Shown: positions 17,370 to 56,805 of the stretch, piece by piece
Layout: each line of letters starts with the position of its first letter
How positions within the stretch are numbered: position 1 is the first letter of the stretch
Assembly (NCBI GenBank): GCA_016219965.1
Contig: JACRJM010000009.1
Span: forward strand, 76,553 to 140,552
Reading direction: 5' to 3'
Length of the DNA stretch: 64,000 bases
DNA from: Candidatus Schekmanbacteria bacterium
Lineage (GTDB): Bacteria; Schekmanbacteria; GWA2-38-11; J061
Notes under the pieces: model-generated
What the model was told of the DNA's origin: nothing
The model's database searches: none
Seen by the model: only the letters and a program-made list of their open reading frames with translations
Program-made: the position numbers and the translations under genes

Positions 17370-18101
17370 TTATTTTACAACTCTAAATCCGTTCTTCATC
17401 TTGGCACATCCATCTTTATCCTGTCCACTAATATAAACATATACATCGTACTTCGTAGCAATAGCATCAGTGTATACTGAAACCAACGCGGTAAATGAAT
17501 TGTTTGTTATAGTCTGCGTCATTACAGTAGGCGGCGGACATGCATCGATAGATGTTTCCTCCCCATTCTTAGTTATATATTTATATATATAAACAAAAAT
17601 CTCACTGCCTTTTAAATTCTTGCCTTTTACTTTAATCTTTTTTGTTGCTCCCCTTTTTAGTTTGTTTGGCTTTATGCTTATTATTTTAGACTCATTCCTA
17701 TTTGGGACCAGATTTAACACGTTTGCTTTTTTTGCTACATTTACAGTATTAGTGTACGGCCCTGTTTGAAGGAATAGATCATAACTTCCTGTCTCTGAGC
17801 ATGCTGACGTATTTAGTGTTCCTGATATTTCAGTTGGTGTCGGATTAAAAAAATAACTATAAAAATAATCGCCGTTTTTACCTTCTCCATGTTTGCGGAA
17901 TACAACGGATTCATTTACTTGGTCAAGATTTGTACCTGATATTGTAATTTGTGCCTGATCTCCCCGTTTAACATTTTTGCTTGGCTTTATAACGACTTTA
18001 TCAATTGTTGGTTTGTCAGCAGCATAAGCTGATGAAACTGCAGTAAACAATACAATCATGAATATACCTAAAATTCGTCTTGTTAAAATTTTCATCTTCA
18101 T
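17370..18101 (-). CDS. Secreted IPT/TIG-like beta-sandwich protein
   Basis: 243 residues from the ATG at 18101, chosen because AGAGGGGGG lies just upstream; an earlier start would put this site inside the gene. Signal peptide MKMKILTRRILGIFMIVLFT ending AVSSAYA-AD. The mature part has two similar halves: KPTIDKVVIKPSKNVKRGDQ with ISGTNL, and ESKIISIKPNKLKRGATKKI with VKGKNL. Such G(T/K)NL strands mark IPT/TIG immunoglobulin-like domains. There are no enzyme motifs; it is likely a surface or periplasmic structural or binding protein. It has its own terminator and about 250 bases of upstream sequence without a gene, so it is probably monocistronic. Confidence 0.75.
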   Translation of the reverse strand: MKMKILTRRILGIFMIVLFTAVSSAYAADKPTIDKVVIKPSKNVKRGDQAQITISGTNLDQVNESVVFRKHGEGKNGDYFYSYFFNPTPTEISGTLNTSACSETGSYDLFLQTGPYTNTVNVAKKANVLNLVPNRNESKIISIKPNKLKRGATKKIKVKGKNLKGSEIFVYIYKYITKNGEETSIDACPPPTVMTQTITNNSFTALVSVYTDAIATKYDVYVYISGQDKDGCAKMKNGFRVVK

Positions 18102-18349
18102 TTCATTACCCCCCTCTTGGTTTTTATTTACAGGCAATTTAACGATTTTCTTTTAATATACATATGACTTTTGTAAAATCAAATTATATTTGGTAAATTT
18201 TTGGTAAAAACTTTATTGAGTTATCCAAAACTGGAAACAGTTCCAAATCTCATTGACAGATTAAAACTTTCCCCATATAAAAAAATTATCAGTAACAATG
18301 AATCATATCCTTAAGTTAGTTGTTAACATATGGAAGGAGAATGGTAATC

Positions 18350-18913
18350 ATGGATAAAATTGATCTTGGCCAGACCTTTGAAGAGCGCCAGGTAGGGATA
18401 AGAGGGAATATTCAAAAAATGGGTATCCCTCTCAGGGATTTAAATAAAAAAGAGCTTGAAAATGAAATAAAAAAGTTTTTAAAAAGAAAGCAGTGTCTTT
18501 CTCTTGCCACGGTCAGCCCTGACGGTGTTCCGCGCATAAGCCTCCTTGATTATCAGAGTGAAGGGCTTGATATAATAATGGCAAGCGAGGGGGGTGAGAA
18601 ATTCAGGAACCTTCATTATTCAAGAAAAGTTGCCATATCAATAGGATTCTCCGATGGTACTGCCCCTTCTGAATACGGGCTTACAGTTCAGGGCGAAGCG
18701 GAAATCTATAAAGCTCCTGACCCGCGTTATCTTCAGTGCATGATGAAGATGAAACCTTTCCTTGAGGAATGGGCCAAGGCAGTGACGAAGATTTCTATAG
18801 ATCAGGCCATAAAAAAAGCATTCACCGTAAGGGCCATAAAAGTTTCTCCTTTAAAAATGATATACATGAATATCCCTGAGGGAGTCCCACTTCTGAGCTG
18901 GGAAAGAGATTAA
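18350..18913 (+). CDS. Pyridoxamine-phosphate-oxidase-like FMN split-barrel protein
   Basis: 187 residues from ATG 18350, which has AAGGAGA ten bases upstream; two earlier in-frame starts at 18320 and 18341 are less well placed. The split-barrel core is QCLSLATVSPDGVPRISLLD (about residues 46-65), then LDIIMASEGGEKFRNLHYSRKVAISIGF and VQGEAEIYKAPD. These proteins bind FMN, F420 or heme; some, such as HugZ, degrade heme. Which ligand applies is not shown. It is 12 bases from a B12 radical SAM gene and in the same run as a bilin-reductase-like gene, so a tetrapyrrole role is worth considering. A second split-barrel gene is at 26.5 kb. Confidence 0.8.
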   Translation: MDKIDLGQTFEERQVGIRGNIQKMGIPLRDLNKKELENEIKKFLKRKQCLSLATVSPDGVPRISLLDYQSEGLDIIMASEGGEKFRNLHYSRKVAISIGFSDGTAPSEYGLTVQGEAEIYKAPDPRYLQCMMKMKPFLEEWAKAVTKISIDQAIKKAFTVRAIKVSPLKMIYMNIPEGVPLLSWERD

Positions 18914-18925
18914 ACTATCAGAGAT

Positions 18926-20278
18926 TTGAAAACCGGTAAAAAAATACTCCTCGTAAATCCCTGGATATACGATTTCGCTGCATTTGACATGTGGATGAAG
19001 CCAATTGGGCTTCTTTACATATCATCATTTCTTAAATCAACCGGATATGATGTGTCTCTCATTGATTGTCTTGACCGCGGAGACCTTGACCTTCTTTCGT
19101 TCCGTGGGCTTCAAAAGCGGCAAGATAAATATTTTGGATGCGGGAACTTTTACAGGGAGATAGCAGAAAAACCGCAATGTCTCGCCGATGTGCCAAGGAA
19201 TTACTGCCGCTACGGAATGCCTCCTGAGGTTTTTAAAAAAAAGCTAAGCTCGGTGCCAAAACCTGATTTTGTTCTTGTGACTTCAGTCATGACTTACTGG
19301 TATCCGGGGGTTCAGCATGCAATCAAAATGATAAGGGAGTGTTTCCCGGATACTAAAATTCTGTTAGGAGGTATTTATGCAACCCTATGTCCTGAACATG
19401 CAGCAGCAAATTCAGGGGCTGACGTAATATACAAAGGACGAGGGTTGAATAGGCTTATCTCAATATTGAATGGCGATTTAACGCCTGATAAAATAGAGAG
19501 CGATGAGTGGCTTTTTGCAGGGGAACTTCCATATCCGGATTTTTCAGATTATCATAATTGCGATTATTTCTGCATAATGACATCGCAGGGGTGCCCGTTC
19601 AATTGCGCTTATTGTGCTTCAGGACTTCTTGATGGTAAATATATCCAGAGGGATTACAATGATGTTTTAAAGGAGATTGAACTCCAGATTGAAAGTACAG
19701 GTGCGTCCAACCTTGCTTTTTATGATGATGCACTTCTGGTCAATGCAGAGGGACATTTTGAAAAGATATTGGATGGGATTATTGAAAGAGGGATACGCAT
19801 CAGCCTCCATGCGCCGAATGGACTTCATCCAAGATTTATTACAGAAAATATCGCTGAAAAAATGAAAAAGGCAAAGTTTGAGACTTTAAGGTTGAGTCTT
19901 GAGACTTCTAATCCTGAAAGACAGGAAAGCACGGGAGGAAAGGTAAAAAGTGAGGAGTATGCTGCGGCAGTTAATATCCTGAAGTGTGCGGGCTTTACTA
20001 AAGATAATATGGGGACTTATGTTTTTTTTGGTATTCCAGGGCAGCCGCTAAGTGAAGTAGAAGAGAGTATAAGTTTTGTGAAAGCTGCCGGAAGCAGCGT
20101 TAATCTTGTGGAGTATTCGCCTATTCCCGGAACTGTTATGTGGAATGAACTTGTAAAAAACGGGGTAATTGTGCAGGATATGGATCCTGTGCTTCAAAAT
20201 AATTCAGTGTTTTTCAGGAAATTCTCCGGAATAACTGAAAACGCGCTTCAGCGGCTTAAGGGAATGTCTAAAGAGTAA
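18926..20278 (+). CDS. B12-binding radical SAM enzyme (BchE-like)
   Basis: 450 residues from a TTG at 18926. The N-terminal cobalamin domain starts KKILLVNPWIYDFAAFDMWM and includes LLGGIYATLCPEHAAANS near 150-168, without the DxHxxG base ligand, as is normal for this class. The radical SAM cluster motif is SQGCPFNCAYC near 225; the barrel continues LAFYDDALLVN, LRLSLETSNPERQ and FFGIPGQP. It would use SAM and cobalamin for methyl transfer or for oxidation/cyclisation, as BchE does on porphyrin. Only six bases separate it from the bilin-reductase-like gene downstream, so they probably work together. Substrate not established. Confidence 0.88.
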   Translation: MKTGKKILLVNPWIYDFAAFDMWMKPIGLLYISSFLKSTGYDVSLIDCLDRGDLDLLSFRGLQKRQDKYFGCGNFYREIAEKPQCLADVPRNYCRYGMPPEVFKKKLSSVPKPDFVLVTSVMTYWYPGVQHAIKMIRECFPDTKILLGGIYATLCPEHAAANSGADVIYKGRGLNRLISILNGDLTPDKIESDEWLFAGELPYPDFSDYHNCDYFCIMTSQGCPFNCAYCASGLLDGKYIQRDYNDVLKEIELQIESTGASNLAFYDDALLVNAEGHFEKILDGIIERGIRISLHAPNGLHPRFITENIAEKMKKAKFETLRLSLETSNPERQESTGGKVKSEEYAAAVNILKCAGFTKDNMGTYVFFGIPGQPLSEVEESISFVKAAGSSVNLVEYSPIPGTVMWNELVKNGVIVQDMDPVLQNNSVFFRKFSGITENALQRLKGMSKE

Positions 20279-20284
20279 GCTATA

Positions 20285-20968
20285 ATGAAACAACGGAACA
20301 TCAATTTCAATGAAACATTGCTTTCTTTTTTAAAAGGAAGAGAGTCCCTTTCAGAGATTAATATTGAGAGGAAAATAAAGACTTATGATAATGCCTTCGT
20401 CCATATTGAAAACAGGGCATTCTCCGGAGGGAATATAGGAAAACTTTCTATCTCTGATATTAAGATCGCAGGGATTGCTGATGCATCAATAGGGATTATT
20501 CGTCCGGCGCAAAGTATCAAAGCGCCATTATTCGTTGCAGAAAAGCTTGATTTACTTTCTTTGTCACGTCTTATCATTGATATTCCCCATACTTCAAATG
20601 ACAGTGGATTTGATTCTAAGCGTTTAGATGGGATTGCTGACATTTCAAAGGAACTTTCAATTATTCCGAGAAAGAACATTATTGTAGAAAGCACTTCACA
20701 TAATCCATTTTCTCCATACTGCTTTAAAGGGATATTTTTCCGTCATCACAGGTTTGCCACAGGGACAGCAATAAGAAGATATATCTCATGGTGGGATTTG
20801 TGTCTTTCTGCTGCGGACAGATCTGATGAAGGCGCTGTTTGTGATGCAAACTCTTTTAGCGGAGAGTTTAAAAATAATTATGTGTCGTCCAGTCTGGTAT
20901 TAAGACTAATTGGCGCAGTAATTGATGATGAATGGAAAAATGATTACATCAATGGATTCCTTTTCTAA
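20285..20968 (+). CDS. Ferredoxin-dependent bilin reductase-like protein with altered active site
   Basis: 227 residues. From Ile41 (IENRAF) to Glu86 it aligns without gaps to the cyanobacterial PcyA sequence as I remember it: IENR+aromatic, a shared Lys, Pro at 74 and 81, then PLF. It continues with IIDIPHTS in place of IADLSPT. FSPYCF matches FSEYCLF, and the C-terminal DEWKNDYINGFLF matches EAWAERYMSQVLF. This is good evidence for the FDBR fold, which reduces biliverdin-type linear tetrapyrroles with ferredoxin electrons. The PcyA residues Glu76, His88 and Asp105 fall on Ser57, Ile69 and Glu86, so chemistry or substrate may differ. No heme oxygenase of the usual type is visible. It ends a short operon with a B12 radical SAM gene. 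The alignment is by hand and from memory. Confidence 0.6.
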   Translation: MKQRNINFNETLLSFLKGRESLSEINIERKIKTYDNAFVHIENRAFSGGNIGKLSISDIKIAGIADASIGIIRPAQSIKAPLFVAEKLDLLSLSRLIIDIPHTSNDSGFDSKRLDGIADISKELSIIPRKNIIVESTSHNPFSPYCFKGIFFRHHRFATGTAIRRYISWWDLCLSAADRSDEGAVCDANSFSGEFKNNYVSSSLVLRLIGAVIDDEWKNDYINGFLF

Positions 20969-21031: not shown

Positions 21032-21361
21032 CTATTTTTTTTCTTCCTTTTTCTTTTCAACGACAGGAGACATCTCTTTGCATATTGCTCCCTGATCTGA
21101 TTCTATATATTTGCAGAGGACTTTGTCTCCGACCTTAAGGGCAGATATATCTTTTTTCTCGCCGTTTATCTTGATGTCTGTTTCTGATGTTACTGTGCAG
21201 GTATGTTCCCCTCTTGACCCTTTAATTTCAACTTTGCCGCTCTTTGTATCAATGGACTGAATGTTGCCTGTAAGCTGGTGTTCCTTTTGGGCTGCCATAA
21301 CCGGTGATAATAAGGATAAGACGAGAATGGCAGCTAATGATAACAAGGCAAACCGTTTCAT
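21032..21361 (-). CDS. Small secreted OB-like protein
   Basis: 109 residues with a signal peptide ending SLLSPVMA-AQ. The mature part reads HQLTGNIQSIDTKSGKVEIKG, then TVTSETDIKINGEKKDISALKVGDKVLCKY: a small beta-barrel of the kind seen in DUF5666 or CusF-like periplasmic proteins. It lacks the Met/His/Trp copper ligands of CusF. The C-terminal tail is Lys/Glu-rich. AGGAGGTGA stands before the ATG. Function unknown; perhaps metal or ligand binding. Confidence 0.7.
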   Translation of the reverse strand: MKRFALLSLAAILVLSLLSPVMAAQKEHQLTGNIQSIDTKSGKVEIKGSRGEHTCTVTSETDIKINGEKKDISALKVGDKVLCKYIESDQGAICKEMSPVVEKKKEEKK

Positions 21362-24927: not shown

Positions 24928-26355
24928 TTATTTATTAATCTTTGACTGCTGTTTCAATATTTTCCGTGCTTTTTTGACATCATTTTTCTTTTTATTCTGG
25001 CGTCCTAAAACAAAGGGATTTATGGAAGTCCTTGCGACGTTGAAGAGCAGTTTTGGGGTCAACAGACCATTGGAAACAAAGAATGCGAAAATCTTCCATA
25101 ACGTTGAAGCAGTGTAGAACTTTCCATAAATTGTTTTTCTGATTTCTTTAATATCACTTACAGAATATTTATCTGAATAAACTCTCTCCTTTTTGTCAAT
25201 ATGATAGCCGCGGAGACCTTTTATCTCGGCATACATGGGAGAGGTCGGGGCGCACCTCAGGTTGCTGACACCTATGGAGCCAATGCCGACCTCGCGGGCA
25301 AAGCCGGCAATATTGAGCATTTCTTCCTTTGTCTCATTGGGGCTGCCTATTATGAAATAGGCGTGAGAAAATATATTGAATTTCCGGAGAACCGCAAATC
25401 CCTTTCTCAAATCATCAGTTGTAAATCCCTTTCTCATCTGCTTTAGAACATGATCCTGTGATGATTCGATACCAAGCGTAAGAAATCTGAATCCTGCTTT
25501 TTCCATTTTGGCGAGTACCTCAGGATGTCGGTAGATTTCTATCCTTGCATTGGAAACAAATACTTTTTTAATTTTCTGCTCAATGATGAGGTCGCATATC
25601 CGCTCAACTCTTTTTACATCATGGGTGAAGTTCTCATCGAGGAAAATTATGAAATCCGCGTCGATCTCTTTTATTTCCTCAACAACATCTTCAGGCTCAC
25701 GGCCTCTCCATTTTATCTTTTCTCCATCGGGTGTAAAATTGAAAGTACAAAACTTGCAGTTATACGGGCATCCTCTTGATGAAAAGACGCCATCAACTGT
25801 ATATCCGAAATTAATGCCGCTGATTTTAAACTGATATTTATAATCTCTTAAATTTCTGCCTATCTTATAAAAATGGCTTAGATCATCCATACCCCTCATG
25901 GGGTTATGAATGACTTTTCCATCGCAGTTGTATGAAATTCCCTTTATTTCGTGTAAAGGGGTGTTCTGGAGGATTTCCCTTATTGTTTTCTCTCCTTCTC
26001 CTCTGACAATGATATCAATATTGGGGCATTCCTGTAAGAGGGTTTCTGTGGTTTCCGTGGCTTCACGTCCGCCAACTATGGTAAGTATGCCTGGAGGGAT
26101 TGAGCGTATAAGCTCTTTCACCTTTTTTTTCTCGTAGTACCAGTTGACGCTGATTAAAACAGCATCAGGGAGGGGGTTCATAAAACGGCTGAGGTTCCCA
26201 TTCTCAAATCGCATATCCACAATTTTTATCTTCTCTGAAAATTCGCTTGCAGTCCTGGCTATGCTTTCAAGACCTATGGGAGGCATGAACCCGGCAGAAG
26301 AAAGCTCTTTCTTGTATGGATAAATACATAATATATTTTTTAACTTTTCTGTCAC
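24928..26355 (-). CDS. B12-binding radical SAM protein
   Basis: 475 residues. Cobalamin-binding domain from KNILCIYPYKKELSSAGFMP to IVGGREATETTE near 90-105; radical SAM motif SSRGCPYNCKFC near 190; FIIFLDENFTHD, LTLGIESSQDHVLKQM and FIIGSPNETKEEM in the barrel. The C-terminal 120 residues are basic and partly hydrophobic, as in family members acting on lipids or membranes. It meets the isochorismatase gene tail to tail and has a gap of about 130 bases upstream. Reaction unknown; methylation or C-C rearrangement are the usual options. Confidence 0.87.
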   Translation of the reverse strand: MTEKLKNILCIYPYKKELSSAGFMPPIGLESIARTASEFSEKIKIVDMRFENGNLSRFMNPLPDAVLISVNWYYEKKKVKELIRSIPPGILTIVGGREATETTETLLQECPNIDIIVRGEGEKTIREILQNTPLHEIKGISYNCDGKVIHNPMRGMDDLSHFYKIGRNLRDYKYQFKISGINFGYTVDGVFSSRGCPYNCKFCTFNFTPDGEKIKWRGREPEDVVEEIKEIDADFIIFLDENFTHDVKRVERICDLIIEQKIKKVFVSNARIEIYRHPEVLAKMEKAGFRFLTLGIESSQDHVLKQMRKGFTTDDLRKGFAVLRKFNIFSHAYFIIGSPNETKEEMLNIAGFAREVGIGSIGVSNLRCAPTSPMYAEIKGLRGYHIDKKERVYSDKYSVSDIKEIRKTIYGKFYTASTLWKIFAFFVSNGLLTPKLLFNVARTSINPFVLGRQNKKKNDVKKARKILKQQSKINK

Positions 26356-26489: not shown

Positions 26490-27065
26490 TTACTCTTTCT
26501 TAGTCCATGTATATTTTACCGCGCTTTTTTCCGGTTCAAGATAGAGATAAATTATCTTTTCAGGTTCTATTCTTATGAGACTGAAGGCATTAAGGACCTT
26601 TTCAAAAAAAGTTTCTCTCTCAGATTCAGGAAGCTCTCCTCTCTTTATCCTGTCATCTACCATCTTTCCCATTGAATCGTACATGCCAAACTCGCGGAAT
26701 TTTTCAAGGTAAAGCTTTTCATTGTTCTTTTTTGTGATAAGGGCCGCATTCCCGAAATACTGCATGCTCTTGTTTGTCGCGCTGTGGTCTCCCACTGATT
26801 TATAAACCGTGACTGACACAGAGGGGTTCTCTTTGATGTTAACTACTTTTTCCCCTGGTTCAGCACCTATCCACAGAACAAGCCCTTCGCTGAAGAAATC
26901 AACCGGAGTGTTTCTCGGTTTATTATTCCTGCATGTGGCAAGTGCGCATGCGCTTCCATGTGCAAGTCCGCATCCCACATCAAGAGTTCCTTTCCTCGAA
27001 CTATTCTCATTCAGGAATTCTATTATCTCCTTTTCAAGCTTCTCTTTATCCATCTTTCCCTTCAT
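26490..27065 (-). CDS. Second FMN split-barrel (pyridoxamine-phosphate-oxidase-like) protein
   Basis: 191 residues; the start may be Met1 or Met5. Split-barrel core HGSACALATCRNNKPRNTPVDFFS near 36-59, then LVLWIGAEPGEKVVNIKENPSVSVTVY, typical for FMN-binding family members, and a C-terminal strand IRIEPEKIIYLYL. Only distantly similar to the split-barrel protein at 18.3 kb. Cofactor and substrate unknown. It lies 19 bases after the GT-C gene on the same strand, so it may be its operon partner by read-through rather than by function. Confidence 0.78.
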   Translation of the reverse strand: MKGKMDKEKLEKEIIEFLNENSSRKGTLDVGCGLAHGSACALATCRNNKPRNTPVDFFSEGLVLWIGAEPGEKVVNIKENPSVSVTVYKSVGDHSATNKSMQYFGNAALITKKNNEKLYLEKFREFGMYDSMGKMVDDRIKRGELPESERETFFEKVLNAFSLIRIEPEKIIYLYLEPEKSAVKYTWTKKE

Positions 27066-43336: not shown

Positions 43337-44842
43337 ATGAAAACTCTTTTTATATCAAAGGGACAGGAAACATTAGCAGTAGAATACCTCGCTTCAGTGC
43401 TGAAATCGAAAGGGCATACTGTTAAGCTCCTGTTTGATCCCGGCATCGACGATAACATGGGATTCTGGGATATTTCGCTTCTGAGAAAGATTAATCCCAA
43501 TAACCTCTTCATTGAAGAAATGATATCCTTTGCTCCTGATCTTGTCGCATTATCTTGTCCTCTCAATATGTATCCCTTTGTAAGAAACTCTGCGCGCATG
43601 GTTAAAGAGCATCTGGGTGATGTCCCGGTTCTTGTAGGGGGCGGCCATCCTACGACGGCTCCGGAGTATGTCCTTTCAGATCCGAATATAGATATGGTCT
43701 GTATCGGCGAGGGTGAAGAGCCAATAGCAGATTTGGCGCAGAGGATTGAAGATAAAAAGAGTTATAATGACGTAGAAAACCTATGGGTGAAAACTGCGAG
43801 CGGTATTGTAAAAAATCCTATCAGACCCCTTTTGCAGGATCTGGATTCTCTGCCTTTCCCTGACAGGGAGATTTTTTATTCTTATGGCTGCTTTGCCGGA
43901 AATCTCTATTTTATAGCAGGCAGAGGATGTCCTTTCCAGTGCACCTATTGCTGTCAGCACACATTCAAGGAGATATACAAGGGAAAAGGAAAGTATATCA
44001 GGCTACGCAGTGTTGATAATATCATGAAAGAACTTGAATATGGTGTAAGAAGGTACAATGTGAAACACATCCATTCAGAGGATGATACATTTGCTTTTGA
44101 CCATGACTGGACTAAAGAATTCTGCAGGGAATATAAGAAAAGGATACATGTTCCGTTTTACTGCCATGTAAGACCTGGAACATTAAATGAAGGAGTTCTG
44201 GCTGACCTTGCTGACGCAGGTTGTGTAGGGGTTTTCTTCGGGGTTGATTGCGGCAATTATGAAATGAGAAGGGATATATTGAAACGCCCTGTAACAGATG
44301 ATGTCATTATTGAACAGGCAAAGCTTGTTAAAAAAGCAGGAATAAAGATTTCATGCTCATCCATGTTCGGACTTCCCGGAGAGACTCCCGGGCAGATGTA
44401 TGAGACATTCAATATGATAAAAGGGATTGAAAGCGATTTTGCCTATGCCACAATCTATTATCCGTTTTATGGGACGGAACTCTTCCAGTACGCAGTTGAC
44501 AACGGCTATCTTGATGAAAAAACTGTTGCATTGATAAAGGATGGGAAAGGATCTCTCTATGGTGAGCCTCTTATAAAGACTGAATACAAGGACACGGCAA
44601 TGCTTCTTAAGAATATGCTGCCGTCTTATATGAGGTTTAAAGGATTGAGGTTCATTTTTGATTTAATCTTAAAAAGCAAATCATGTTCTCTGGCAAAATT
44701 AATTAATCTGTTTTTCACACCTTTTTCTTATGCCTCGATCGGAAAATTGAAAAGAAAAGAAATGGCTTCTGTATTCTTGAAGTTTATTGCCTATAAATTG
44801 AGAATTATTTCTCTCCATAAGCTGGCGGCAGGAAAAGAATAA
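43337..44842 (+). CDS. B12-binding radical SAM protein (tandem copy 1)
   Basis: 501 residues. N-terminal cobalamin domain with FISKGQETLAVEYLASVLKS, SCPLNMYPFVRNSAR and VGGGHPTTAPEYVL; radical SAM motif GRGCPFQCTYCCQHTFK near 194; KGKYIRLRSVDNIMKELE, EDDTFAFDHDW, CHVRPGTLNEG and FGLPGETPGQM follow. The last 80 residues are hydrophobic and basic, suggesting membrane or lipid contact. It shares order and many motifs with the next gene, and with 55381-56805, and clearly arose by duplication. Role: perhaps methylation of a lipid-linked sugar or lipid; inferred from context. Confidence 0.88.
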   Translation: MKTLFISKGQETLAVEYLASVLKSKGHTVKLLFDPGIDDNMGFWDISLLRKINPNNLFIEEMISFAPDLVALSCPLNMYPFVRNSARMVKEHLGDVPVLVGGGHPTTAPEYVLSDPNIDMVCIGEGEEPIADLAQRIEDKKSYNDVENLWVKTASGIVKNPIRPLLQDLDSLPFPDREIFYSYGCFAGNLYFIAGRGCPFQCTYCCQHTFKEIYKGKGKYIRLRSVDNIMKELEYGVRRYNVKHIHSEDDTFAFDHDWTKEFCREYKKRIHVPFYCHVRPGTLNEGVLADLADAGCVGVFFGVDCGNYEMRRDILKRPVTDDVIIEQAKLVKKAGIKISCSSMFGLPGETPGQMYETFNMIKGIESDFAYATIYYPFYGTELFQYAVDNGYLDEKTVALIKDGKGSLYGEPLIKTEYKDTAMLLKNMLPSYMRFKGLRFIFDLILKSKSCSLAKLINLFFTPFSYASIGKLKRKEMASVFLKFIAYKLRIISLHKLAAGKE

Positions 44843-44846
44843 CCGT

Positions 44847-46322
44847 ATGAGGATACTTTTCTTTGCAACCGGACAGGAACTGCTTGGCATCGAATACCTT
44901 TCGGCAGCACTTAAAAGGGACGGACATGAAGTTGAGCTTGCCTTTGATCCGGGTCTCGGTGATTTTCTTGGATTCATAGATATTCCACTGTTGAAGAATC
45001 TGACAAATGAGAACTGGTACCTTGAAAAAGTCAGGTCCTTCAAACCTGATCTTGTAGCATTCAGCTGTCTTACAAATCTCTATTCCTTTGCCCGTGATAA
45101 AGCTAGGCTCATAAAAAAACATTTTAATATTCCAGCTGTAATCGGCGGTATCCACCCTACTATTCTCCCCGAGTATGTTCTTGAGAATCCTGATTTTGAC
45201 ATGCTCTGCATTGGAGAAGGGGATGAGGCCATGCCGGAACTTGTCCGGAAGATGGAGAAAGGAGAAGATTATTTCGACACCCGCAATTTTTGGTTCAGGC
45301 GCAACGGGGAGGTTGTAAAAAATCCGGTGCGGCCTCTTATACAAGACCTTGATTCACTTCCTTTCGCAGACAGAAGTCTTTTTTATAAGTATGGATGTTT
45401 CACCGGGACGCTCTATTTTATTTCCGGCAGGGGATGCCCATTTACATGTAGTTACTGCTGTCATCATTTTCTTCAGAAGAAGTACAGCGGGCTTGGAAAG
45501 TACGTGCGTAAAAGGAGTGTTGATAACGTCATCAAAGAAATAAAGGAATGCCTTGGCAGGTACAAAGTAAAATCTCTTTATTCCATGGATGATCTTTTTA
45601 CCATCAATACGGCCTGGATAGAGGAATTCACCGATAAGTACAGAAAAATTTCGAACTTGCCAATTTACTGCCATGTAAGACCGGGAACACTTAACAGGGA
45701 GATTGCTTCAGCACTTGCAAAAGCAAACTGCACGTCTGTTTTCTTAGGTATAGATTCAGGAAGCCCCTTTATCAGGACAAACATAATGAACAGAAATATA
45801 AAGGATGAAGACATATATTCGAATGCCGCACTTCTGCAGGAATTCGGAATAAAGATAACGACATCTCTTATATTCTGCATGCCTGACGAAACTGACAGCC
45901 AGATGATAGAGTCCATTGAAATGGTAAGAAAGCTCAAGACTGATTATCTTTATACTTATATATATTATCCTTTCCCAAATACGGAATCATACAATTACTG
46001 TGTTGAAAAAGGCCTTGTAGATGCTGATACAATGGAAAAAGTAAAAAGAGGAGAAGGCTCGTTCCACAAGAAGCCGCTCATAAAATCTGAATATGCTGAA
46101 CTTGCACAGGTATTGAAAAACATGGCACCCCTTTATGTGAAGTTCCCTTTTCTTAAACCTCTCATATGGTTTATTATGAAGAGACGCTGGATCAGGGCGA
46201 GTGAAATAGTTTTCTTTCTCACTGCTCCTATTACGTATGCGCACTTTGGGCGGGCAAAAATAAAGGAATTTTTTTCTCTTATGAGAATGGCTTTTCTGGC
46301 AAGATTAAGGACGAGGGGATGA
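44847..46322 (+). CDS. B12-binding radical SAM protein (tandem copy 2)
   Basis: 491 residues, four bases after copy 1. Parallel motifs: FFATGQELLGIEYLSAALKR, SCLTNLYSFARDKARL, IGGIHPTILPEYVL, GRGCPFTCSYCCHHFLQ, GKYVRKRSVDNVIKEIKE, MDDLFTINTAWIEEF, CHVRPGTLNREIA. The second acidic segment reads CMPDETDSQM where copy 1 has GLPGETPGQM, so the strand near SAM differs. The C-terminus is again hydrophobic. The pair may act on different positions or chain lengths. Its stop overlaps the next methyltransferase start. Confidence 0.88.
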   Translation: MRILFFATGQELLGIEYLSAALKRDGHEVELAFDPGLGDFLGFIDIPLLKNLTNENWYLEKVRSFKPDLVAFSCLTNLYSFARDKARLIKKHFNIPAVIGGIHPTILPEYVLENPDFDMLCIGEGDEAMPELVRKMEKGEDYFDTRNFWFRRNGEVVKNPVRPLIQDLDSLPFADRSLFYKYGCFTGTLYFISGRGCPFTCSYCCHHFLQKKYSGLGKYVRKRSVDNVIKEIKECLGRYKVKSLYSMDDLFTINTAWIEEFTDKYRKISNLPIYCHVRPGTLNREIASALAKANCTSVFLGIDSGSPFIRTNIMNRNIKDEDIYSNAALLQEFGIKITTSLIFCMPDETDSQMIESIEMVRKLKTDYLYTYIYYPFPNTESYNYCVEKGLVDADTMEKVKRGEGSFHKKPLIKSEYAELAQVLKNMAPLYVKFPFLKPLIWFIMKRRWIRASEIVFFLTAPITYAHFGRAKIKEFFSLMRMAFLARLRTRG

Positions 46323-51863: not shown

Positions 51864-53249
51864 ATGAAAATACTTCTCCTTAATCCTCCGGCAAGACAGA
51901 AAAGTCATGAGAGCATTGTTGTCCCTCCTCTCGGGCTTGCATATCTTGCATCTTCCGCAAAAAAGGAAGGCTTTCATGTTTCCATTCTCGATGCCTTTGC
52001 GCTTGGCATGGACTGGAATGAGCTTGAATCAGCAGTTGAGAAGCTCTCTCCTGATATACTGGGGATAGGCGGCATGAGCCCTGTCATAGATACGACTTTC
52101 AGGGCTGTAAAATTACTCCGGGGCAAAGTAAAGACTATTATAATGGGCGGCCCCCATATTACCGCCTTTGGTGCCGGAATATTTGAACAATGTCCCGAGA
52201 TAGACATAGGTGTTTACGGGGAAGGAGAGAGGACATTTGTCGAGCTTCTAAAATCAATATCAGAGAGGAAAACTTTTAACCATGTTGATGGGGTCATAAC
52301 CAGAGAGTTTACCGGAAAACCAAGAGAGATGATAAAAGATATTGATTCAATCCCTTATCCAAGCCGCGATGGACTTCCAAATGATAGATACCGTTACCTT
52401 TTCGGATGGAAAGGAAAGATGACGACTATGTTCACTTCGCGGGGATGTCCTTATCACTGCGTCTTCTGCGATAAATCGGTGTTCGGTACAGGCTGGAGGT
52501 CGAGGTCGCCTGAAAATATTATTTCCGAGATAGAAGAGGTTGTAAATCTCTACGGGACGAGGAATATCATATTTTATGATGATCTTTTCACACTTCAAAA
52601 GGAAAGGGTCCTTAAACTTTGTGCACTGATAGAGGAGCGTAAGCTTAAAATCCAGTGGAAATGCGAGGGACGCGCTGACAGGATAGACAGGGAAATGCTG
52701 AGAACTATGAAAAAAGCAGGGTGCCAGGTTATTGCCTTTGGTGTTGAAAGCGGCAACCAGAAGGGCCTTGACTATCTTAAGAAATCCATGGACCTCGGAA
52801 AAGTGAAAGATGCTTTTTCCATGGCAAAAAAGGAAGGAATAGAGACGATTGCGTATTTCATTCTTGGAATACCCAACGAGACGTTTGATGAGGAAAAGAA
52901 GACCGTTGAATTTGCCCTGGAAATAGATCCTACCTATGCTCAGTTCAGTGCCCTATCCCCCTATTACGGGACATGGCTGTATGATGAAGCATTGAAGAAT
53001 GGCTGGTACCGAGAGATAGATGCACAGAATCCGGCTGACAAAGATCTTAAAAGACCTGTAGTTGTCTCGGAACTCTGGGATGAGGACAAACTAAAAGAAA
53101 TAGTCCGTTTTGCCTACAGGAGGTTTTACTTCAGGACCGGATATGTGTTAAGAAGGCTTAGATATTTTGCATCTCCTTCGAAATTTATTGAGCTTTTCAT
53201 GTCGGGACTCTCTTTTTTGAGGTGGTATTTTATTGGAAGGCGGAATTGA
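51864..53249 (+). CDS. B12-binding radical SAM protein
   Basis: 461 residues. Cobalamin domain MKILLLNPPARQKSHESIVV, PLGLAYLASSAKKEGFHVSI, IIMGGPHITAFGAGIF; radical SAM motif SRGCPYHCVFCDKSVFG near 190; FYDDLFTLQKERVL, FGVESGNQKGLDYLKKS and FILGIPNETFDEE. It differs in detail from the three-member subfamily at 43.3, 44.8 and 55.4 kb. The C-terminal end FIELFMSGLSFLRWYF recurs, decayed, at 60.9 kb. Reaction unknown; methylation of a glycan or lipid intermediate is the best guess from context. Confidence 0.88.
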   Translation: MKILLLNPPARQKSHESIVVPPLGLAYLASSAKKEGFHVSILDAFALGMDWNELESAVEKLSPDILGIGGMSPVIDTTFRAVKLLRGKVKTIIMGGPHITAFGAGIFEQCPEIDIGVYGEGERTFVELLKSISERKTFNHVDGVITREFTGKPREMIKDIDSIPYPSRDGLPNDRYRYLFGWKGKMTTMFTSRGCPYHCVFCDKSVFGTGWRSRSPENIISEIEEVVNLYGTRNIIFYDDLFTLQKERVLKLCALIEERKLKIQWKCEGRADRIDREMLRTMKKAGCQVIAFGVESGNQKGLDYLKKSMDLGKVKDAFSMAKKEGIETIAYFILGIPNETFDEEKKTVEFALEIDPTYAQFSALSPYYGTWLYDEALKNGWYREIDAQNPADKDLKRPVVVSELWDEDKLKEIVRFAYRRFYFRTGYVLRRLRYFASPSKFIELFMSGLSFLRWYFIGRRN

Positions 53250-55380: not shown

Positions 55381-56805
55381 ATGGCAAAGATAGCCTTTGT
55401 CCAGAACCTCGCATATGAATATCTGGGTGTTATGTACCTTTCATCTGTCTTGAAAAAAGCAGGGCATGATGTTGAAATATTCATCGGTGATGGCGGGAAA
55501 CGTTTGATTGAAGAAGTAATTGAATATGATCCCGGCATTGTAGCTTTTTCCTGCACTACTGGACTGCATCGGTGGTGCCTCAAAATGGCAGAAGATTTAA
55601 AAAAAAGAAGCAGGGCATTCATGGTGCTTGGCGGTCCGCACCCGACATTCTTTCCCGAGATGATAATGTCGCCCGGTGTTGACGGAGTATGTATTGGCGA
55701 GGGGGAAGCCCCGTTACTTGAACTTGCCGGCGGGATTTCAAATAGTGAGGATATAAGTGGAATAAGAAACTGGTGGTTGAAATTACCCGGTGAGAATATC
55801 ATAAAAAATGAGATAAGGAATCTCATTGAAGACCTGGATTCACTTCCATTCCCGGATAGAGAGCTATATTCCAGGAGATATCCTTCTATAAATAAATCCC
55901 AGAAGGCATTTATTACTGCCAGAGGATGTCCGTTTAACTGCTCCTTTTGCTTCAACCATGCCATGAAAAAGATTTATGCAGGAAAAGGAAAATATGTAAG
56001 AAGAAGAAGTATTAAGAATGTAATTGAGGAAATAAAGGAAGTAAAAAATAATTATAATCTTAAAGTAGTATATATTCAGGATGATACTTTCACACTTGAT
56101 AAAGAATGGATCAGGGAATTTTCGGATGTATACAAAAGTGAAATTGCCCTCCCTTTTATCTGCCTGATCAGGGCTGACACAACTGATGAAGAAACGATAA
56201 GATTATTAAAAAATGCAAATTGCACTAGGGTTTTTTTTGGCATTGAGTCAGGGGACGAAGGTTTAAGGAATAATCTCCTTTCAAAAGGAGTGACTGATAA
56301 GGAGATATTTGAAACCGCGGCATTACTAAAGAAATATAAAATACCTTTCAGGACATATAATATGCTGGGTCTTCCCGGAGAAACGATTGAACAGGCTTTT
56401 AAGACTATAGATATAAATGTGAAAATTGGGACAGATTACCCCTGGTGTTCTTTGTTTCAGCCTTATCCACGGACAGTTCTTGGAGAATCCGCAGTAACAA
56501 TGGGATATTTAGATAGAGAGAGTAATATAGCCGAATCCTCTTTTTTTAGGACAACTGTTTTAAAATCTCCTCAAAGCAGGGAGCTCGCAAATTTACAAAA
56601 ATTATTTTTCTGGAACGTAAAAATCCCCATCTTTAAACCGCTTATTGGTAAACTAATCAAGTTACCGTCAAATTTTGTTTTTGATATATTTTTTCTGATT
56701 GGATATGGATATTGTTTTTTAAGAAGTGAAAGCTTTACTTTAAAGGAACTCATGACAATTGGTGTGAACAATCTTAAAAGATTCTTTTTTTCTTCCTCTT
56801 CTTAA
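55381..56805 (+). CDS. B12-binding radical SAM protein (third member of the subfamily)
   Basis: 474 residues. Same subfamily as the tandem pair at 43.3 and 44.8 kb: AFVQNLAYEYLGVMYLSSVL, LGGPHPTFFPEMI, DLDSLPFPDREL, ARGCPFNCSFCFNHAMKK, GKGKYVRRRSIKNVIEEIKE, IQDDTFTLDKEW, NMLGLPGETIEQ. CHVRPGT of the pair is replaced by CLIRADT. The C-terminus is hydrophobic. It starts on the base after the methyltransferase stop, the closest of the pairings in the locus, so a joint reaction sequence is likely. Confidence 0.88.
   Translation: MAKIAFVQNLAYEYLGVMYLSSVLKKAGHDVEIFIGDGGKRLIEEVIEYDPGIVAFSCTTGLHRWCLKMAEDLKKRSRAFMVLGGPHPTFFPEMIMSPGVDGVCIGEGEAPLLELAGGISNSEDISGIRNWWLKLPGENIIKNEIRNLIEDLDSLPFPDRELYSRRYPSINKSQKAFITARGCPFNCSFCFNHAMKKIYAGKGKYVRRRSIKNVIEEIKEVKNNYNLKVVYIQDDTFTLDKEWIREFSDVYKSEIALPFICLIRADTTDEETIRLLKNANCTRVFFGIESGDEGLRNNLLSKGVTDKEIFETAALLKKYKIPFRTYNMLGLPGETIEQAFKTIDINVKIGTDYPWCSLFQPYPRTVLGESAVTMGYLDRESNIAESSFFRTTVLKSPQSRELANLQKLFFWNVKIPIFKPLIGKLIKLPSNFVFDIFFLIGYGYCFLRSESFTLKELMTIGVNNLKRFFFSSSS

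Follow-up and report, generated by a model that had tools for sequence, protein, structure and literature searches.

The subject of this report is a cluster of three genes in a 64,000-nucleotide stretch of DNA (the window) from Candidatus Schekmanbacteria bacterium (assembly GCA_016219965.1, contig JACRJM010000009.1). All three genes lie on the + strand. The first (18350-18913) encodes P0003, a 187-residue flavin mononucleotide (FMN) split-barrel protein of the PNPOx-like type that scores over the cut-off of PF01243 (41 bits). The second (18926-20278; TTG start) encodes P0002, a 450-residue B12-binding protein of the radical S-adenosylmethionine (SAM) class (PF04055, 71 bits; PF02310, 43 bits). 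The product of the third (20285-20968; ATG start) is P0001, a divergent 227-residue member of the superfamily of ferredoxin-dependent bilin reductases (FDBRs) and red chlorophyll catabolite reductase (RCCR), an assignment that draws on profiles, orthologues and an AlphaFold model. Gaps of 12 and 6 bases separate the genes, and this layout is as the initial annotation of the DNA had described it. The flanking genes, at 17370-18137 and 21032-21361, are both on the opposite strand; the three genes are thus an isolated unit, and their spacing suggests that they are transcribed together. Scans for promoters and terminators performed no better than those of shuffled sequences.

P0001 is a genuine, very divergent relative of the FDBRs. 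Its two full-length orthologues (L038 and L039) are about 30% identical to it (E 5e-22 and 4e-20, respectively). The FDBR profile match that could be expected from the annotation was found by way of such relatives. P0001 alone falls below the 31-bit gathering cut-off of PF05996 (Fe_bilin_red), with 15.7 bits (E 0.012) over residues 30-227; L038 passes with 55.4 bits, and L039, at 24.4 bits, fails. Further, a profile derived from A1, an alignment of 27 FDBR-like sequences of the phylum, retrieved PebB (E 8e-34), HY2 (6e-26), PebA (6e-24), PcyA (5e-22) and RCCR (2e-12) from the Protein Data Bank. When A1 was supplied to AlphaFold, the resulting model of P0001 (pLDDT 86.7, pTM 0.86) had the predicted alpha/beta/alpha fold of the FDBRs. 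It matched PebB (6qx6, Z 24.7) and PcyA (2g18, Z 24.5) with root-mean-square deviations of 2.4-2.7 over 219-224 residues, followed by HY2 (Z 23.8), RCCR (Z 21.2) and coproporphyrinogen oxidase (Z 17.9); a Foldseek search with the model gave an E-value of 3e-10.

The resemblance to PcyA extends to details of the sequence. The stretch from IENR to P(L/M)F spans exactly 43 residues in both P0001 and Nostoc PcyA, and three further residues place Glu86 of P0001 opposite Asp105 of PcyA. The 46-residue ungapped alignment that had been made by hand is therefore correct, its register having been confirmed by the profile alignment. The proposed matches of FSPYC to FSEYC/FSDFC of PcyA, and of the C-terminal EWKNDYINGFLF to DWAENYMTTVLF, were likewise borne out. 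Given homology, direct or through intermediates, and a shared fold, P0001 almost certainly belongs to the FDBR/RCCR superfamily, in which it is not closer to RCCR than to the FDBRs (E 2e-12 versus 8e-34 for PebB).

The active site of P0001 is far less conventional. In alignments to PcyA (numbered via the positions of H74A, E76, I86 and H88) and, separately, to PebB, the catalytic residue PcyA Asp105/PebB Asp99 is replaced by Glu86 (codon at 20540-20542), and PebB Asp219/PcyA Asp220 by Ser203 (codon at 20891-20893). His88 and Glu76 of PcyA correspond to Ile69 and Ser57, and the Tyr-Asp of the YDxP motif is missing. The change of Asp to Glu86 is, as judged from the alignments, a conservative one, and Glu is also found at this position in both full-length orthologues. 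Across the 27 family members, the Asp105 column contains D (11), E (8), N (6) and Y (2); 22 members have the second Asp, with the DPG motif there, and 11, among them the one at C10:113126-113833 of G000, retain both. It is known that PebB requires both Asp residues, that only the first is needed by PebA, in which the second is dispensable, and that HY2 of vascular plants also deviates at the central Asp, having Asn there (PMC6755814). Another acidic residue of P0001, Asp99 (codon at 20579-20581), lies on the same sheet as Glu86, further along; it is invariant in all 27 phylum members and is present in the aligned PebB, HY2, PebA and PcyA. Arg153-His154-His155 (20741-20749) is specific to the P0001 subfamily: this RHH motif is invariant in P0001, L038 and L039 and missing from the other 24 rows of A1. 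Because P0001 fails two FDBR-defining residues, its sequence supports its place in the superfamily but does not warrant the name of bilin reductase.

P0001 is not alone in its genome. Four Schekmanbacteria genomes were sampled: the window's own (G000), G001, G002 and G003, with G000 belonging to the same order and phylum as G003; orthologues of P0001 occur in G002 and G003. The family profile detects nine FDBR-like copies in the window's own genome and 14, 3 and 4 in the others. Besides P0001, G000 thus has eight members, seven of them over the Pfam cut-off. In a first sample of 386 genomes, mostly spread across bacteria, PF05996 was found in eight: the four Schekmanbacteria, three others that each encode a single PcyA-like protein (262-272 bits), and G249, where the match is weak. 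A second sample, centred on G249 and its group of large genomes, contained weak family-profile matches in 15 of 385 genomes (L165-L179), most of which were excluded from the phylogenetic tree owing to a wrong or uncertain reading frame. In this tree, which was calculated without an RCCR row, P0001 and its orthologues from G002 and G003 form a clade with support of 100/100, and L177, from the second sample, groups with PcyA. Three sequences of the phylum (L015, L048 and L049) drift toward the known FDBRs with weak support (79/87), and we therefore do not claim that the FDBR-like family of the phylum is monophyletic. A contig scan with the P0001 subfamily had GWA2_38_11 as its sole match, which is the G003 record (MGDB01000039.1, C39 of G003).

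The genomic settings of the paralogues are unrelated to one another, with neighbors including DUF169 and isochorismatase proteins, ChaB and transporters. At one locus of G000 (L016 6781-10767; C7:455781-459767), the FDBR-like gene directly follows those for a fumarase alpha subunit and a flavoprotein resembling fumarate reductase/SdhA; the family of the gene that comes after it is also represented at a paralogue locus of G001 (L040). An arrangement kept in two genera (L012 9502-11142 and L029 1361-3001) joins an FDBR-like gene to one for a NIR_SIR and Fer4 protein of the siroheme-enzyme type. Elsewhere, the adjoining gene encodes an aldehyde:ferredoxin oxidoreductase (L047 6404-8968) or, in G001, an 84-residue 2[4Fe-4S] ferredoxin that is a possible electron donor (L049 3169-4141). 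Since the eight other paralogues of G000 sit in such disparate contexts, we regard the locus studied here as one instance of the radiation of a family and not as an operon dedicated to bilins. A phylum-specific radiation of FDBR/RCCR-superfamily proteins is our best reading of these observations.

The partnership of P0001 with the radical-SAM gene is the durable feature of the locus. In G002 and G003, the P0002 orthologue precedes that of P0001; an alcohol dehydrogenase gene stands in front, and the split barrel is not there. In G001, the order is a split barrel (68% identical to P0003; L089 1533-2084), the radical-SAM protein (56%) and then an open frame, truncated where the contig ends, that resembles the N-terminus of P0001 (score of 60 versus a maximum of 46 in 2000 shuffles). 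The radical-SAM/FDBR-like pair is hence present in all four genomes, although in G001 just the first 42 residues of the FDBR-like protein can be read, and the linkage of the two genes is ancestral in the phylum. We consider a conserved functional link between them to be rather probable. The three-gene order implied by the annotation survives only to this extent, for the split barrel at this locus is limited to the window's family (G000 and G001), with the alcohol dehydrogenase substituting for it in the other family. P0003 is also not of the HugZ type suggested earlier. It reaches 22 of the 225 bits needed for HutZ (TIGR04110), as compared to 33 of 79 for the Rv1155 type, and this weak kinship led us to reject the HutZ/HugZ assignment. 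We similarly discarded the notion of the split barrel as a special partner of FDBR-like proteins: such proteins are common here, the window itself encoding another at 26490-27065 and more of them lying close to some of the paralogues.

P0002 has the B12-binding and radical-SAM domains of BchE, and the ligands of its radical-SAM 4Fe-4S cluster, the CX3CX2C motif (C223, C227 and C230; 19592-19615), are kept in 41 family members. To call it BchE-like is apt for the broad class; as BchE itself it must be rejected, with 50 of the 481 bits of TIGR02026, and P-methyltransferase models outscore BchE on it. P0002 instead belongs to a separate, widespread family, present as one copy per genome in 77 of the 386 sampled bacterial genomes (E<=1e-60) and, at 51-56% identity, as a single copy in all four genomes of the phylum. 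The family, whose members are 34-56% identical and carry the motifs NPWIYDFAAxDxW, MTYWYPG, FYDDALL and PNGLH, is apparently unnamed: no listed NCBIfam equivalog reaches its cut-off. A Protein Data Bank search with P0002 alone returned nothing at 1e-5. An attempt to deduce the function of P0002 from its neighbors elsewhere failed, as none recurs in the 37 loci outside the phylum (L120-L156) and no neighbor family occurs in more than 6 of 41 loci. Nearly all genomes with this family are without an FDBR (77 of 386 genomes versus 8 of 386 with PF05996). The reaction of P0002 therefore cannot in general need an FDBR, and P0002 and P0001 are associated only at the level of the phylum. Five more B12/radical-SAM genes are found in the window (24928-26355, 43337-46322, 51864-53249 and 55381-56805), four of them embedded in an extended series of genes that resemble those for glycosyltransferases, methyltransferases and membrane proteins.

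What might P0001 act upon? ALAD is present in three of the four phylum genomes, the fourth being 70% complete, and tetrapyrroles are therefore made. As the annotation had supposed, classical heme oxygenase (PF01126) is found in none of the four; a search for the phytochrome PHY domain also found none. Thus, within these searches, both the usual source and the usual use of biliverdin are missing, and because of this the substrate of P0001 is probably not biliverdin. No member of HutW/ChuW (TIGR04107) scores over its cut-off in the four genomes; the best in G000 has 179 of 400 bits, and the matches overall score 147-190 bits, as other HemN-like proteins would be expected to. Neither a globin nor a V4R protein occurs among the scanned neighbors of the locus, no genome-wide search having been made for either.

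We conclude, with a probability of roughly 0.5, that P0001, which has eight paralogues in its non-photosynthetic genome, is a rapidly evolving FDBR/RCCR-superfamily protein that reduces a substrate other than biliverdin. By analogy with the superfamily, P0001 would receive one-electron transfers from a low-potential iron-sulfur carrier or ferredoxin and would reduce a double bond in a conjugated molecule bound in the pocket that the sheet forms with the distal helices. Glu86 could be the proton donor in place of Asp105, with the second Asp not being used, as in PebA. Candidate substrates are a different tetrapyrrole of the cell's own making and a conjugated metabolite of another kind; that P0001 acts on a tetrapyrrole we propose tentatively, at somewhat short of an even chance. 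The number and contexts of the paralogues favor some spread in substrates among them. The radical-SAM enzyme probably acts in the same pathway within the phylum, its own reaction being older and independent, and the split barrel would be an optional local partner. Several facts weigh against this interpretation. The branch of P0001 is long (1.78, versus 0.36-0.40 for its orthologues), and with neither canonical Asp residue left, the protein may be degenerate or may bind a ligand without acting as an enzyme. When AlphaFold was given only the three-member P0001 subfamily, no confident model emerged (pLDDT 37.6), and the fold claim accordingly depends on the paralogue alignment. Further, the electron donor is assigned by superfamily analogy, and the apparent absence of heme oxygenase could stem from remote or missing sequences.

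Of the competing explanations, the one that carries the most weight, while still unlikely, is that the FDBR-like paralogues no longer act on tetrapyrroles at all but serve various catabolic enzymes, either as reductases linked to ferredoxin or as partners that bind ligands. Bilin synthesis would hardly seem to call for nine to 14 paralogues in a genome, and the adjoining aldehyde:ferredoxin oxidoreductase, NIR_SIR/Fer4, fumarase and fumarate-reductase-like, DUF169, isochorismatase and transporter genes, together with the variable Asp105 column, are what such a departure would leave behind. However, the 11 members that retain both canonical Asp residues are expected of continued tetrapyrrole handling, and all solved high-Z relatives of the fold act on tetrapyrroles. 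Decay is a poor explanation for P0001, and we think it very improbable that the protein is a failing or non-catalytic copy retained only through its operon position. Its branch is indeed the longest of its clade, and Asp105, Asp220 and the YDxP Tyr-Asp are lost; yet the 227-codon frame is intact, RHH and other subfamily residues are conserved at about 30% identity, and G001 likewise has a homologous frame after its radical-SAM gene.

The annotation had inferred that the three genes could open and reduce a tetrapyrrole. In this model, the radical-SAM protein, possibly aided by the split barrel, would open heme or a different porphyrin anaerobically, and the linear product would then be reduced by the FDBR-like protein. 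There is precedent in HmuW, a radical-SAM enzyme that opens heme anaerobically and whose product is handled by a separate reductase; the known heme-opening radical-SAM enzymes are of the HutW/ChuW/HmuW type, class C (PMC10404700). The conservation of the gene pair in four genomes, the failure to find heme oxygenase and the evidence of tetrapyrrole synthesis are all agreeable to it. But P0002, unlike enzymes of that type, has a B12-binding domain, and its family resides mostly in genomes without FDBRs. When the replacement of the Asp pair by Glu86 and Ser203, the dissimilarity of P0002 to BchE, the HutZ scores, the inconstancy of the split barrel and the lack of a detected phytochrome domain are also considered, heme opening by this operon appears quite improbable, and the claim is not supported. 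Hardly less doubtful is a more speculative proposition: that in an anaerobic, non-photosynthetic phylum without heme oxygenase, the B12/radical-SAM enzyme and a reductase with the FDBR fold make up an ancient, oxygen-free pathway for modifying a tetrapyrrole. In that case, the paralogues would be a stock of tetrapyrrole reductases that need no oxygen and that either predate bilin synthesis or run parallel to it.

FDBRs have been argued to have arisen after oxygen. The existence of 3-14 FDBR-like proteins per genome without detectable heme oxygenase or phytochrome makes this claim testable. Should the paralogues reduce tetrapyrroles, one branch of the family is independent of oxygen; should their substrates be others, the fold has undescribed chemistry. 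The radical-SAM/FDBR-like pair is a concrete starting point, because both genes stay together across the phylum.

FDBR-like sequences from Schekmanbacteria are already known. Rockwell, Martin and Lagarias at first placed them between the FDBRs and the RCCRs, and later within the outgroup of the tree; the text consulted makes no mention of copy number, the radical-SAM linkage or a P0001-type subfamily (PMC10151467). The same study describes the pathways of known FDBR/RCCR-fold relatives as ultimately oxygen-dependent (Rockwell 2023, PMC10151467). The pre-PcyA proteins treated there resemble P0001 in being FDBR relatives from non-photosynthetic bacteria that lack His88; they are from other heterotrophs, act on biliverdin and cluster with heme oxygenase, globins, V4R, Fe-S or B12-binding proteins, whereas no globin, V4R protein or heme oxygenase is seen at the P0001 locus (PMC10151467). 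RCCR shares the fold of P0001 (Z 21) and is recognized by the family profile, but the match is weaker than that to the FDBRs, and no chlorophyll metabolism is known in this genome. BchE and P0002 have in common a B12-binding domain and a CX3CX2C radical-SAM domain, and differ in that P0002 falls far short of the BchE equivalog and has a widespread family of its own with distinct motifs. PcyA, PebA, PebB and HY2 differ from P0001 in the Glu, Ser, Ile and Ser that it carries at the positions of Asp105, Asp220, His88 and Glu76, in its score under the Pfam cut-off and in its residence in a genome without detected heme oxygenase. These four proteins are nonetheless its closest counterparts, sharing with it full-length family homology, the alpha/beta/alpha sandwich (Z 23-25), the invariant Asp99 of the beta strand, and the PLF and FSxYC motifs.

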